Part shown: in pieces, positions 13,417 to 19,532 of the stretch
Layout of the letters: every line of letters begins with the position of its first letter
Position numbering within the stretch: position 1 is the first letter of the stretch
From: Candidatus Poseidoniales archaeon
GTDB lineage: Archaea; Thermoplasmatota; Poseidoniia; Poseidoniales; Thalassarchaeaceae
Reading direction: 5' to 3'
Assembly: GCA_012964335.1 (NCBI GenBank)
Contig: DTUF01000024.1
Span: 1-64,000 of the forward strand
Length of the DNA stretch: 64,000 nucleotides
Notes under the pieces: model-generated
What the model saw: only the letters and a program-made list of their open reading frames with translations
What the model was told of the DNA's origin: nothing
Databases searched by the model: none
Program-made: the position numbers and the translations under genes

Positions 13417-15534
13417 TCAACTGTATACAATAGGCAAGAATGCGTTAGCAGCCTTTTCACAAGCATTCGCAACGTCATCAAGGCGTTGTAATACACGGTA
13501 CATGTGCATCGCTGCCAGAGGTTGTTCATCACCTTCGGTAAACACGAATGCAGCAGAATCCCTCTCAACCTCATCAGCTTCATGCTCTAGCATATTGACC
13601 TCACGAATTAACCTGAAAAGTGCGTTTTTCTCTTTCCTAGTATAACCAGAGAAGTTTAGGTTTTTTAGTTGCTCAACTGTATCCTCATAACGACTTACTG
13701 TTTCAACCACGGCATTTGACATTTGCAATAAATTATCACGTGCTTCCTGATTGTCATATAGGCTACGGAATGAAAGTTGTTCAGCAACATTTTGAGCATA
13801 GTCTGCAATGCGGTCTTGACGTGAAATCATGTGCAAGAAATTATCTCGCCCAATTGTAATACGAACCCCTTTCCCAACCTCTTCCCGAAGAGTTGCTTTG
13901 AGATGGTCTGCCTCAAGTTCAGCTGATACTGTAGCGGCGATTTTTTCTTTTGGATCACCACCGGAAACTGCTTCTGAAATCGCTTCTGCCATGCAACTCA
14001 CAGTTCGCTCAACGGCAATAGCATGCTCGTGGAATAACTCGAATGGCGAAACCCCCATTACTTCTACGGAAGGAAGAGGTGCAATTATCTCAATATCAAC
14101 AGCATCTTCTTCATCATCTCGTTCTGGAATTGGCTTGATTACTACATATCCAGTAATAGCAAATGCCAATACAGTCACTACAACTACATTCATTGGAGTT
14201 CCTGCAAACATGATGTAGAAAATTACGGCTCCAAATCCAGCAACAGGTAGACTTGCTACCCAACTAGCAGCGATTTTCCAGAATACACGGAAATCAACAG
14301 CAGATGCGCCACCTGCTAAGCCAACTCCAACTACAGCACCTACTAATGTGTGAGTTGTTGAAATTGGAACCGCCAAGAATGGCATTGAGAAAATTAGTAC
14401 CGTTGTTGCAGCACCAAACTCAGCCGCAAACCCTCTAGAAGGAGTAATGTGGGTAATTTTCTTACCGATTGTATCCATTACTTTGTAGCCCCAAGTTGCT
14501 ACCCCAATAGTGATACCTGCGCCACCAAGAAGAAGCAAGCCAATAGGCACTTCTACTTGCTCAGTAGATAAGGTCCCGTTAGCAGATGTCGCAATATCAT
14601 ATATCGCCGCCATTGGCCCAATTGCATTTGCAACATCATTTGCACCATGGGCAAAGGCAACATAACAAGCAGTGATTATTTGCAGCCAAATGAATACTTG
14701 CTCAACTCCAGCGTACCCTTCCTCTTTGAACTCATAACGACGTAAAATAAGCCATAGAATTGTGCTCGCTACTATTCCAATGGCAAGCGCAACAAGTAAA
14801 CTGTTTAATGGAATCCAAGCACCTTCAACGAGTGGGTTGAAAGTTGTACCATCCTTAGGAGGGAGCCAATGAGACTTGACGATTATCCCCTTGGCATCAA
14901 GATTGGAATAAAACCCCTTCAGACCTTTGAATTGAAGAGCAAGGCCGAGAACAAAGAATGTTGGCAAAGCTAGGAGGGGTGCAATTTTACGCGTCCTTTC
15001 TACAGGGTCTTCATGATTCATAATTACTCGTTTGATTAAGTTAAATGAGAAGTAAGCGATGAACCCACCTAATAATGGAGAAATAATCCAACTCATCACT
15101 ATCTCCAATACTTTGCCCCAATTTACAGAATCGACCTGAATGAATAGTCCCATTCCGATGACTCCGCCAACGATACTGTGAGTCGTGGATACTGGCAAAC
15201 CATACTTTGTAGCGATAGTTAGCCAAATTGCTGCGGCCAATAACGCACCCATGAATCCATACATTAAATTTTGACTTAATTCGTAAGAAAATCCTTGGTC
15301 GCCGAAATCAAGTACACCCTTTCGAATCGTGTCTGTAACGTGACTTCCGAAGAATACAGCACCAGCGAATTCAAAGATTGCTGCAACGATAATTGCGCGC
15401 TTGAGGGTTAATGCGCCACTGCCAACGCTAGTACCCATGGCATTAGCAACATCGTTTGCACCGATATTCCAAGCCATGTAGGCTGCAATCAAAGCCGCCA
15501 TAACCATGACGACGGTGATGGTCATCCCTAGCAT
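13417..15534 (-). CDS. Inorganic phosphate permease (PiT/PHO4 family) fused to PhoU-like domain
   Basis: This 705-residue protein imports phosphate with a cation. Both PiT signature repeats are present: WNIGANDVANAMGTSVGSGALT at the N-terminus and FAHGANDVANAIGPMAAIYD in the middle, each followed by a GLPVSTTHSIVG or AVPISTTHTLVG motif. About ten to twelve helices extend to about residue 475. From about 490 to 700 the chain is soluble and helical, with Glu/Asp-rich patterns (LEHEADEVERDSAAFVF) of the PhoU/DUF47 fold that in other genomes is encoded as a separate protein beside pit genes. The fusion suggests built-in regulation of transport. Such fusions also occur in Bacteroidetes-type proteins, hinting at exchange. 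Alternative Met4 start possible. Confidence 0.9.
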   Translation of the reverse strand: MLGMTITVVMVMAALIAAYMAWNIGANDVANAMGTSVGSGALTLKRAIIVAAIFEFAGAVFFGSHVTDTIRKGVLDFGDQGFSYELSQNLMYGFMGALLAAAIWLTIATKYGLPVSTTHSIVGGVIGMGLFIQVDSVNWGKVLEIVMSWIISPLLGGFIAYFSFNLIKRVIMNHEDPVERTRKIAPLLALPTFFVLGLALQFKGLKGFYSNLDAKGIIVKSHWLPPKDGTTFNPLVEGAWIPLNSLLVALAIGIVASTILWLILRRYEFKEEGYAGVEQVFIWLQIITACYVAFAHGANDVANAIGPMAAIYDIATSANGTLSTEQVEVPIGLLLLGGAGITIGVATWGYKVMDTIGKKITHITPSRGFAAEFGAATTVLIFSMPFLAVPISTTHTLVGAVVGVGLAGGASAVDFRVFWKIAASWVASLPVAGFGAVIFYIMFAGTPMNVVVVTVLAFAITGYVVIKPIPERDDEEDAVDIEIIAPLPSVEVMGVSPFELFHEHAIAVERTVSCMAEAISEAVSGGDPKEKIAATVSAELEADHLKATLREEVGKGVRITIGRDNFLHMISRQDRIADYAQNVAEQLSFRSLYDNQEARDNLLQMSNAVVETVSRYEDTVEQLKNLNFSGYTRKEKNALFRLIREVNMLEHEADEVERDSAAFVFTEGDEQPLAAMHMYRVLQRLDDVANACEKAANAFLPIVYS

Positions 15535-15627
15535 GAGTTACCGCTCGAGGGTTTGTCTATTAACGCTGTGGAAACAAACTTTGGATTTGGAATGCCACCT
15601 CAAAAGGTGTTACACACCTCAATTATC

Positions 15628-15805
15628 TACATCAATGACAAAACCAATTCTGGTTGAATCAAATAAATCAGTAGGCCGATACCTGCGAACATCATCATCC
15701 AACTGTCAACCATCTTAATCATATCAGTAGCTTTGCGGGAGAAGGCTTCAACCTTCTTGCTTCCAACACCAACAATCACTAACACTGTCATCATGCTGAC
15801 GAAGA
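15628..15805 (-). pseudogene. Relic 3' end of a second CcdA/DsbD-like gene
   Basis: The reverse strand from about 15805 down to a TAG at 15628 translates to about 58 residues containing ATDMIKMVDSWMMMFAGIGL and LIYLIQPEL. This aligns without gaps to the last 55 residues of the adjacent gene (ATGTIKLVGAWMMMFAGIM, MIYLTNPEL), about half identical by eye. The relic has no start and no upstream portion. Its base composition is A/T-rich like the chromosome, unlike the GC-rich intact copy that directly precedes it. It reads as the tail of the original gene left after replacement, or as a decayed duplicate. Confidence 0.7.
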
Positions 15806-17296
15806 TCAGAGAATCAAGGTGGTCAACTCTGGATTCGTGAGATAGATCATCAGCATGATGCCGGCGAACATCATCATCCAGGCACCGACTAATTTGATCG
15901 TGCCCGTGGCGCGGCGCAGGAAATTGATTGCGACCTGTCGTCCGAGACCTACGATACCGGTCACGACGATCATGAGAACCAACAGACCGATCATCAGCGC
16001 ACCGAGTCCGTATAGGACGGATTGGTTACCCAATGTCGAGAGGTAGATGATGAACGGCAGCACCGCGGCCGCCGTACAATCCACAGACGCGGCCGCATAA
16101 CCAAATCCATAGAGGTACATGTTGCGTTTCGGCGTGAAGGTCTCATCCGCCTCCGTGGTCGACCACTTGTCGATCCACCGCTGGATGAATCCCATCAGGT
16201 GTGAGGTCCCGCCCATCAGCATGAATCCTCCGAGAACGAACAACAGAACCGCAATGCTCAGCGCCAGATAGTGAATCAACCCACTGCGCGCAAAGGCCTC
16301 TCCCATGACCACGGCGATGATGCCGATGATGAGGAAGAAGGTCCACATCCCGAGACCCGAAAGTGTCCCGATGACCAATGAATTGGGCATTTTACCCTTC
16401 AATTTCCCCGCCTCGATTAATTCATCCTCTCGCGAGCCCAAGGAGAGATAGTAGGATATGAAGCCCGGCAGAACCGGGAAGGCGCAGGGTGAGAAATACA
16501 CGAGAATCGACAACATCAGGCCGAGGAAAATGATCCCCATCATGCTAGTCTCAACTTTGGCCAGGCCGAAGGTACGCAGCTCCTCGACCTCCTCCTGTGA
16601 GCCCGACAGGGCGATGATGACCGCGGAATCAAACGATTTCCAGCCATCGGTCGGCGTCCCCGTGCTCTCCTTGCCCACAATCCAGCCCTCGTGATCGATG
16701 ATCATCACGACCGGGATGGTGCCCGTGCCGACCGGTGTGAACAGACGCACGGGGTCATCACGCGTATCATTCGCCACATTGACGATCGCTGCGGTCTCAT
16801 TGCCGATACCTGTCGGATATGTCGGCACGGTGTACTCACCACCGCTCTCGTTCAGATAGGCCAAGTCCTCGTAATACCAAGCACCGTAGGCGATGATGAT
16901 AATCTCACGACCGGATTCGTTGCCCACTGCCTCCCATTCGGACTGCATGTCCTCTAGGTGATACTGCACGAAGTGACAACTACCGCAATCACGCGCCATC
17001 ATATCGACGATGACGACCTTGTCGCGGTGATCGCTCAAACGGAACCAGCCAGTCTCATTGGTCACATCCGACTCAATTCCCGTCCGGTTCAGCGTCTCAA
17101 ACTCCAGATCTGGCACCTGTTCTGGCTCGCCAGCCGAGGACATCAACGAAGCCGACAAACCGAACACGGTCAGGCCGGCATAGGCGATACCGGCGAACAT
17201 GACGACAGATATCGCGAAGGCAACCCAGGTCTTCTTTTCAGCAAAGACATTGACATCAATGCCAACCTTCCACTGCAAGGTCTCCTTCCATGCCAT
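15806..17296 (-). CDS. Membrane thiol-disulfide exchange protein: thioredoxin-like domain + CcdA/DsbD transmembrane domain
   Basis: From the ATG at 17296, which follows CAGGAG by six bases, the protein has 496 residues. A membrane helix spans about 23-48. About 60-230 is a redoxin domain facing outside with the active-site pair DCGSC (Cys104, Cys107). From about 255 on there are six or more helices of the CcdA/DsbD family with the two conserved membrane cysteines in FSPCAFPVLPGF and SVDCTAAAVLPF. Such proteins carry reducing power across the membrane for cytochrome c or surface-protein thiols. Its GC content is conspicuously higher (58% in a counted 60-base line) than both flanks, and a relic paralogue follows its stop. 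A tRNA lies just upstream. Acquisition by transfer is inferred. Confidence 0.85.
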   Translation of the reverse strand: MAWKETLQWKVGIDVNVFAEKKTWVAFAISVVMFAGIAYAGLTVFGLSASLMSSAGEPEQVPDLEFETLNRTGIESDVTNETGWFRLSDHRDKVVIVDMMARDCGSCHFVQYHLEDMQSEWEAVGNESGREIIIIAYGAWYYEDLAYLNESGGEYTVPTYPTGIGNETAAIVNVANDTRDDPVRLFTPVGTGTIPVVMIIDHEGWIVGKESTGTPTDGWKSFDSAVIIALSGSQEEVEELRTFGLAKVETSMMGIIFLGLMLSILVYFSPCAFPVLPGFISYYLSLGSREDELIEAGKLKGKMPNSLVIGTLSGLGMWTFFLIIGIIAVVMGEAFARSGLIHYLALSIAVLLFVLGGFMLMGGTSHLMGFIQRWIDKWSTTEADETFTPKRNMYLYGFGYAAASVDCTAAAVLPFIIYLSTLGNQSVLYGLGALMIGLLVLMIVVTGIVGLGRQVAINFLRRATGTIKLVGAWMMMFAGIMLMIYLTNPELTTLIL

Positions 17297-17355: not shown

Positions 17356-17428
17356 TGGGCCCGGCCAGATTTGAACTGGCGAACTTCGCCATGTGAAGGC
17401 GACGTCAAAACCCCTAGACCACGGGCCC
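17356..17428 (-). tRNA. tRNA-Val (anticodon CAC)
   Basis: A 73-nt cloverleaf without encoded CCA. The acceptor arm GGGCCCG pairs with CGGGCCC, discriminator A. The anticodon arm TCGCC-TTCACAT-GGCGA gives anticodon CAC, reading GUG valine codons. The T arm is GCCAG-TTCAAAT-CTGGC. It is very similar to the tRNA at 59116-59188 except for the anticodon and variable positions. It sits between acs (divergent) and the GC-rich CcdA-like gene. Confidence 0.93.
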
Positions 17429-17506
17429 CTGAATGGCGCCCACCCAAGTACCCTGTTTAACGCTGACGACAAGGACTACATTCGCTCCAAATCTCTCTTG
17501 CGTGGA

Positions 17507-17516
17507 TTTGATATAT
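17507..17516 (+). promoter_or_regulatory. TATA box for acs (leaderless message)
   Basis: TTTGATATAT is centred about 26 bases before the ATG at 17538, the distance at which archaeal RNA polymerase would start on or next to the start codon. No Shine-Dalgarno lies before that ATG. This fixes the acs start and argues against the longer frame from 17433. Confidence 0.55.
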
Positions 17517-17537
17517 CGGGCGCGGGCTCGCTACCTG

Positions 17538-19532
17538 ATGGCTGGACAAGATAGTATACAGAATCTGTTGGATGAGCAACGAAAATTCCCGCCACCTGAA
17601 CCAATTGCAAGTGATGCACACATCACCAATTTTGAACAGTATAAATCAATGTGGCAACACAGTATTGATGACCCTGACAGATTTTGGGCTGACATCGCAG
17701 AGGAGTTTGAGTGGTACCGTAAATGGGATACTGTTTCTTCATGGGATTTTGTAAAAGGCCACATCAAATGGTTTGATGGTGCGCAACTAAATGTTAGCGT
17801 AAACTGTCTTGACAGACATGTTGCTGCTGGCCGCGGAGATTCGCCTGCTATCTCTTTTGAGGCCGATAATGGTGAAAGTACCACCTACACTTTCAGCCAA
17901 GTTCTTGAGAAGGTTAGCCGCTTAGGAAACCTATTGAGAGAAAATGGTGTTGTGAAGGGGGATAGAATTACAATCTATATGCCCATGATTCCTGAACTAG
18001 CTTTTGCTCTACTTGCTTGTGCTAGAATAGGAGCTATTCATTCAGTAGTTTTTGGCGGATTTTCAGCAGATTCCTTAGCGCAAAGAATCGTTGATTGTGA
18101 ATCTGATGTGATGATAACAACTGACGCCGGTATCAGAGGTGGACGCACAATTCCGTTGAAATCCATTGCTGATGATGCTATCGAAATAGCAGCCAATAAA
18201 GGAGTCAATGTCAGATGCGTTCTAGTAAACCATCGTGCCGGTGATGGGGTCGGAACTGGCTCATCAGGTTGGGTTGAAGGAAGAGATTTTGACATGGATG
18301 CTGGCATGGCAGATGCTGCCACAGAATGTGAACCTGAAATCATGGATGCTGAAGACCCGTTATTCATTCTCTACACTTCAGGGTCAACTGGCCAACCAAA
18401 GGGAGTCATGCACAGCCAAGCAGGTTACATGATTTGGACTGCAACCACGTGTAAGTATGTGTTTGACCTTGACCCAGAGAGAGATTTACACTTCTGTACT
18501 GCAGATATTGGTTGGATAACTGGCCATTCTTACATTGTATATGGTCCACTTGCTCTTGGAACTCATACCTTGATGTTTGAAGGGATACCAACCTATCCAG
18601 ATGCAGGGAGATTTTGGGATATTTGTGACAAACACAAGCCCACCACATTTTACACAGCACCAACTGCAATTCGTGCTTTAATGGTCTATGGAAACGACCC
18701 AGTTACTCGGTACAAACGCAGTTCTATACGTGTTTTAGGAACAGTGGGAGAACCTATCAACCCAGAAGCATGGATGTGGTACCACGAAGTAGTAGGTGAT
18801 TCTACTCGGCCTATCGTGGATACTTGGTGGCAAACTGAAACAGGTGGGATTATGATAACCCCATTACCAGGAATGACTACTACAAAACCGGGTTCAGCAA
18901 CTTATCCATTTTTTGGAATTAATCCTAAAATTGTCCATGCTGATGGAGAAGAATGCCAAGTAAATGAAGGAGGATACCTCATCATCGAAGGTGCTTGGCC
19001 AGGAATGATGCGAACCATTTATGGAGACCATGATAGATTTGTCAAGACCTACTTCAGTCAACAACCGGGCCGATATTTCACTGGTGATGGCGCCCGCAAG
19101 GATGAGGATGGATGTTTCTGGATTATGGGACGTATTGACGATGTCATCAATGTCTCTGGACATCGAATGGGGACTGCTGAGGTTGAATCGGCACTGGTTG
19201 AGCACGAAGCAGTTTGTGAGGCTGCTGTTGTTGGTTTCCCACACGAAATCAAGGGCCAAGGCATCTATTGCTTCGTAACTCTAGAAGGTGGACGAACACC
19301 TTCTGAAGATCTTCGTCAAGAACTACGGGCAGGAGTACGACGAATTATTGGTCCAATCGCCACCCCAGATAAAGTGCATTTTACCCAGGTATTACCCAAA
19401 ACGAGGTCTGGAAAAATAATGAGGCGTATTCTAAGAAAAATCGCATCAGGAGATATTTCAGACATGGGAGATACCAGTACTTTAGCAGACCCAAGCGTGG
19501 TTCCAAAACTGCTAGAAAGCCGTCCGGAGTGA
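17538..19532 (+). CDS. acs: Acetyl-CoA synthetase (AMP-forming)
   Basis: This 664-residue enzyme converts acetate, CoA and ATP to acetyl-CoA, AMP and pyrophosphate, and matches the usual length of about 650. The ATP-binding loop [19 protein letters not shown] lies near residue 277, the acetate-pocket block [16 protein letters not shown] follows, [16 protein letters not shown] is in the middle, and the C-terminal lid carries [19 protein letters not shown] and [14 protein letters not shown] with the lysine that is acetylated in regulated homologues. The upstream frame from 17433 would overlap tRNA sequence and adds unrelated residues, so the ATG after the TATA box is chosen. It would feed acetate into citrate synthase (36958-38136). 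Confidence 0.95.

Follow-up and report, generated by a model that had tools for sequence, protein, structure and literature searches.

Probable in-place overwriting of a DsbD-like gene by an orthologue from another MGIIb lineage in a Candidatus Poseidoniales genome

We analysed a stretch of 64,000 nucleotides (the window) from contig DTUF01000024.1 of a Candidatus Poseidoniales genome (GCA_012964335.1). The genome assembly comprises 1.97 Mb in 54 contigs, with a completeness of 85.5 and a contamination of 0.04, and its family, f1, includes Thalassarchaeaceae (MGIIb). A gene coding for a protein of 496 aa lies between the genes for a PHO4-family phosphate transporter (PHO4) and an acetyl-CoA synthetase-like protein (ACS). 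It is accompanied on the ACS side by tRNA-Val(CAC), noted as its neighbor in the original prediction, and on the other side, directly behind its stop codon, by a short homologous tail (Table 1). The frame of the gene reaching 17314 is a longer variant, which starts 5' of the conserved ATG on the minus strand. The ACS ORF is given as listed, and its true start is probably further in.

Table 1. Features of the locus, with positions counted from the first base of the window
Feature	Coordinates	Strand	Basis or remark
PHO4-family phosphate transporter, native flank	13417..15534	minus	PF01384; 93.5% aa identity to L012
Remnant of the native gene: its final 55 codons and stop	15627..15794	minus	84.7% aa identity to L012; tree
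3' junction, out of register, 2 bases (AT) shared	15792..15795	minus	base-by-base comparison
Foreign GC-rich block, close to L003 (genus g3)	15793..17228	minus	blastn; includes the stop and 11-13 bases past it
Intact gene, chimeric (496 aa)	15806..17296	minus	ORF, GC3, profile and fold matches
5' junction, in register at conserved AEKxTW codons	17224..17233	minus	base-by-base comparison
Native 5' end (about the first 22 codons) and native upstream region	17229..17296	minus	matches L012 and L047, not L003
tRNA-Val(CAC), native neighbor outside the exchanged block	17356..17428	minus	ARAGORN
Acetyl-CoA synthetase-like (ACS), native flank	17433..19532	plus	Pfam; 94.7% aa identity to L012

The encoded protein is laid out as an N-terminal membrane helix, a ResA/TlpA-like thioredoxin domain with the motif CGSCH, and a polytopic CcdA/DsbD-like membrane domain. 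Four cysteines (C101, C104, C268 and C404) are invariant in the 31 rows compared; the CxxCH of the thioredoxin domain is invariant, and the invariant cysteines of the membrane part sit in PCAFPVLP and DC. A structure model (mean pLDDT 75) matched ResA, DsbE and CcmG via the thioredoxin domain only. A Pfam scan of the window protein gave no match, and among the 31 relatives PF02683 (DsbD_TM) was matched in two (best 2.2e-05) and NCBIfam DsbD in one. In DsbD the membrane part comes first and the thioredoxin domain after it, whereas in the window protein the thioredoxin domain precedes the membrane part. The protein therefore resembles the DsbD/CcdA redox transporters in its conserved membrane cysteines and its CxxC thioredoxin domain, but differs from DsbD in domain order, so that "DsbD-like", the label it was originally given, is fair and "DsbD" is not. 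Its predicted function is probably to supply extracytoplasmic thiols with reducing power from the other side of the membrane.

Among the 41 window genes of at least 200 aa (the intact gene included), this gene is the sole outlier in composition. Its GC3 is 0.728, against a mean of 0.371 (s.d. 0.041) for the others, the next-highest value in the window being 0.464. Uniform composition, which had been named beforehand as speaking against replacement, was thus not found. The GC content of the gene is 55.5% and rises to 57% in 500-base windows, while the flanks (43-45%) lie near the window average of 45.0%, as had been stated. The original prediction was also right in calling the gene GC-rich, but its figure of 58% is a local value and not that of the whole gene.

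The gene is of foreign origin. Over positions 15793-17258 the DNA is 95.7% identical by blastn to locus L003 (genome G010), which belongs to g3, another genus of the same family, whereas at the protein level it shares only 51-56% identity with its counterparts in its own genus. The flank proteins of L003 share 70% (PHO4) and 35% (PAP2) identity with those of the window. A quick tree of 77 rows places the gene with L003 (support 99) and then with L004 and L092 of genus g3 (96), and an AU test on 27 of these rows rejects its grouping with its own genus (p 1.8e-61). Comparison with the L003 gene over 469 codons gave a dS of 0.13, a dN of 0.011 and a dN/dS of 0.085; the gene has thus remained under selection, in working order, since the two split. 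The actual donor may have been a genome other than L003. The GC3 of the L003 gene (0.74-0.76) exceeds that of its neighbors (0.49-0.61), and thus L003 is probably itself a recipient.

The surroundings of the gene, on the other side of the comparison, are native. The flank genes are close to those of L012, a locus of the same genus, not only for ACS and PHO4 (Table 1) but also for the DeoC-like (96.9%) and PAP2-like (83.0%) genes. Of eight further genomes of the genus, six carry a native orthologue as a single copy (unread bases break it up in G002), and the other two, 70% and 69% complete, gave none. In all six, ACS and PHO4 flank the native gene, and the full native copy that had been expected in sister genomes is therefore present at the same place. 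A search of the window's genome, which is 85.5% complete, returned one full copy and the tail only, with no native full copy elsewhere. The finding comes from this single metagenome-assembled genome, and the relatives are mostly incomplete assemblies as well. The tRNA-Val gene has its native position and orientation and is not part of the exchanged block, which makes it a probable bystander. As an integration site it was rejected, because it is outside the block, keeps the native orientation and points in the opposite direction in g3. Upstream of the gene in L013 and L047 ARAGORN reported no tRNA-Val(CAC); the four other genus relatives with the gene have the tRNA. No mobile element was recognized around the block among the eight proteins scanned.

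The tail behind the intact gene has a frame that is open across 55 codons and then ends in a stop, and its GC content is 0.405-0.413. Its ungapped alignment with the C-terminal end of the intact gene gives about 52-54% amino acid identity, in agreement with the earlier description of a half-identical homologue of host-like composition, and with an E of 6.9e-11 in the genome search this similarity is not a matter of chance. Identity is 64-85% to the native C-termini of the six genus relatives and 40-60% to all other sequences compared. In a short tree of 55 columns the tail groups with five genus rows (SH-aLRT 99) and not with the GC-rich gene. It therefore belongs to the native gene of the genus and is the remnant of an orthologue, not the relic of a paralogue as originally supposed. 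The tail had also been described as having no start; an ATG does stand at 15794, but in the native gene this is an internal Met codon.

These data bear on the possibility that the two sequences are tandem paralogues, the tail being what is left of a duplicate of the intact gene that arose within one lineage. The tail does adjoin the gene in the same orientation and is homologous to it, but it is 85% identical to a genus orthologue and only 52-54% identical to the adjoining gene, and a second copy is absent in all six genus relatives that carry the gene. This origin is extremely improbable, and tandem duplication was rejected because the tail is nearer to the genus orthologues than to its neighbor, with which the SH-aLRT of 99 agrees.

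The remnant probably does nothing, and it is probably decaying. Changes unique to it comprise five replacing and one silent, whereas five native tails, counted in a similar way with each set against the four others, sum to four replacing and ten silent (one-sided Fisher about 0.04, calculated by hand on small numbers). Four of the five replacing changes hit sites that are invariant in the six natives. An alternative that is compatible with replacement is that the 55 codons form a functional small protein under selection. The open frame with its ATG would suit such a protein, as would the dN/dS of 0.07-0.12 against the native tails (five tails where it was computable), although this ratio mostly reflects the time before the event. 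Given the excess of replacing changes and the invariant sites that they hit, we regard a functional tail as highly improbable.

The exchange can be placed almost to the base at both ends. On the 5' side the window follows its own genus through MAWKETLQWKVGIDVNVFAEKK and L003 from the following codons on. Position 17233 is the final base that matches the native sequence but not L003, 17228 is the first that is L003-like and unlike L012, L047 and L010 (L011 has the same base), and from 17224 the window differs from all compared genus rows, L011 included. Thus 4 to 8 bases are common to both sequences at this joint, which falls at the same codon in both genes. The 5' anchor shared with L003 is about 33 bases long at about 76% identity, and the upstream regions are not collinear. 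On the 3' side the L003 match passes the stop codon and ends at 15793, and the native match restarts at 15794. This joint is about 60 codons out of register: 11-13 bases past the donor stop, the sequence continues in the native gene at about its codon 437. Read from the aligned sequences, the intact gene is a chimera, native in its start and upstream region and foreign in the remainder, and is followed by a headless native tail.

Joints of this kind could in principle be artifacts, the contig being a chimera put together during assembly from two archaea that occur together. The genome was assembled from a metagenome, and a search of viral contigs for the 29-mer spanning the 3' junction, a weak test, was negative. 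Against this, a chimera would require two joints within 1.5 kb that share at most 8 and 2 bases, too short for ordinary assembly overlaps to be likely. In addition, the reading frame is preserved, the dS between the block and L003 is 0.13, and no second native copy occurs on another contig of the genome. We consider an assembly chimera very unlikely.

Our assessment is that most of an orthologue, stemming from a different MGIIb lineage near L003, was very probably written over the native gene at its own locus. Synteny, trees and composition thus bear out the replacement by a divergent copy that was proposed at the outset. Pairing of the incoming DNA would have taken place at the conserved start of the resident gene, with an in-register switch of sequence at the AEKxTW codons, so that the newcomer would be read from the start and upstream region of the native gene. 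At its other end, 11-13 bases past the donor stop, it would have been joined without homology to the native gene near codon 437; the native middle part would have been lost and the final 55 codons left behind. One homologous and one non-homologous joint are the signature of homology-facilitated illegitimate recombination, and we therefore propose a single event of this kind, with transfer presumably directed into the lineage of the window. Among 124 loci examined, 119 had a C-terminal match; two tails were present at four of the 119, all four being views of the window's genome, and no further remnants were found at the others.

Homology-facilitated illegitimate recombination depends on the strand-exchange recombinase of the cell, and laboratory examples have longer homologous anchors than the approximately 33 bases seen here. 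Because the visible 5' anchor is short, a donor with a more similar start than L003 or a two-step route has to be considered. In the latter, the foreign gene would have been inserted near native codon 437 and the native body later deleted between the two gene starts, which are similar enough to make this conceivable, and the final joints would be the same. Such a route needs two events and an intermediate, however, and none was seen among the 119 loci. We therefore judge it rather unlikely and favor the single overwriting event.

Exchanges are also visible at this locus in other MGIIb genomes. Between L003 and L015, both of genus g3, DNA identity is about 87% on the upstream side of the gene, with values of 85-98% for the 60-base steps closest to it, falls to about 50% in the interval that follows and returns to about 87% from PHO4 onward. 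The switches fall around the AEKxTW codons on the 5' side, as in the window, and near the PHO4 start on the 3' side. The PHO4 proteins place L003 with L015 (93.5% identity, compared with 89.2% for L003-L014 and 89.5% for L015-L014). In L003:1001-2541, relative to L015, the same gene is thus swapped between two divergent types within g3; 3 of 17 g3 genomes searched carry the L003-type gene, 8 the other type, and 6 gave no match. In L013, which belongs to the window's genus, PHO4 is 88-89% identical to that of three g3 genomes and 57-59% identical to that of its own genus. The DNA similarity of L013 to L017 starts at L013:7380, and within L013:7380-9751 the foreign PHO4 is accompanied by a portion of its neighbor on the opposite strand, a regulator-like gene of about 350 aa. 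Based on the L003/L015 and L013 cases rather than on a systematic count, we tentatively entertain, at somewhat less than even confidence, that the locus is a recurrent MGIIb exchange site. Closely similar GC-rich cores would have entered two genera, the window's and that of L003, with the 5' switch at the same codons and under native expression signals, and PHO4 would have been exchanged between these two genera too (L013); a conserved leader would maintain such a cassette-like site without a dedicated recombinase.

The wider survey gave a few further observations. In the gene tree the f2 rows L083 and L085, and L057 beside L085, fall among the f1 rows, a placement that suggests older transfers between families. 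L112, L113 and L115 of g3 carry a second, distant relative (28-29% identical, in a 462-aa frame, covering residues ~180-485), and none like it was found in the window's genome. The N-terminal matches at L102:712-1299 and L057:4787-5147 are split in two separated pieces, perhaps through frameshifts or assembly gaps.

A literature search of titles and abstracts returned nothing on the present gene or on this type of scar in Poseidoniales among the matches listed. Gene replacement by distant orthologues, or xenologous displacement, as a rule leaves no scar and is deduced from trees; here, unlike in such cases, the leftover tail is direct evidence. As in xenologous gene displacement in situ (Omelchenko 2003, as referenced in PMC5867893), a divergent orthologue replaces the native one and gene order is kept: the gene groups with the other lineage, the native locus and its neighbors are retained, and no native copy was found elsewhere in the genome. 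Homology-facilitated illegitimate recombination, outlined in PMC3240628 as combining one homologous and one non-homologous joint, has been proposed for displaced effector arrays in Vibrio, where according to PMC5361080 the older sequence stays downstream. The present locus is alike in its in-register homologous joint, its 2-base joint about 60 codons out of register and its old sequence downstream. The process has been described in bacteria, whereas here it would have acted in an uncultivated archaeon and from a short 5' anchor. A further close parallel is the proteorhodopsin "overwrite" in Ca. Poseidoniales, in which a copy obtained by horizontal transfer took over the locus of a single-copy gene; the mechanism, homologous recombination or transposable elements, is left open in the account of PMC6461757. 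It shares with our case the archaeal order, a membrane-protein gene, replacement at the same locus and conserved neighbors; our case differs in concerning a redox protein, in having joints placed to the base and in leaving a chimeric gene and a remnant. Since proteorhodopsin overwriting has already been published for the order, the present locus is a well-resolved new case, which extends it to another membrane protein; and because donor-side and recipient-side relatives, both joints and the remnant are all in hand, the route of overwriting can be read directly.
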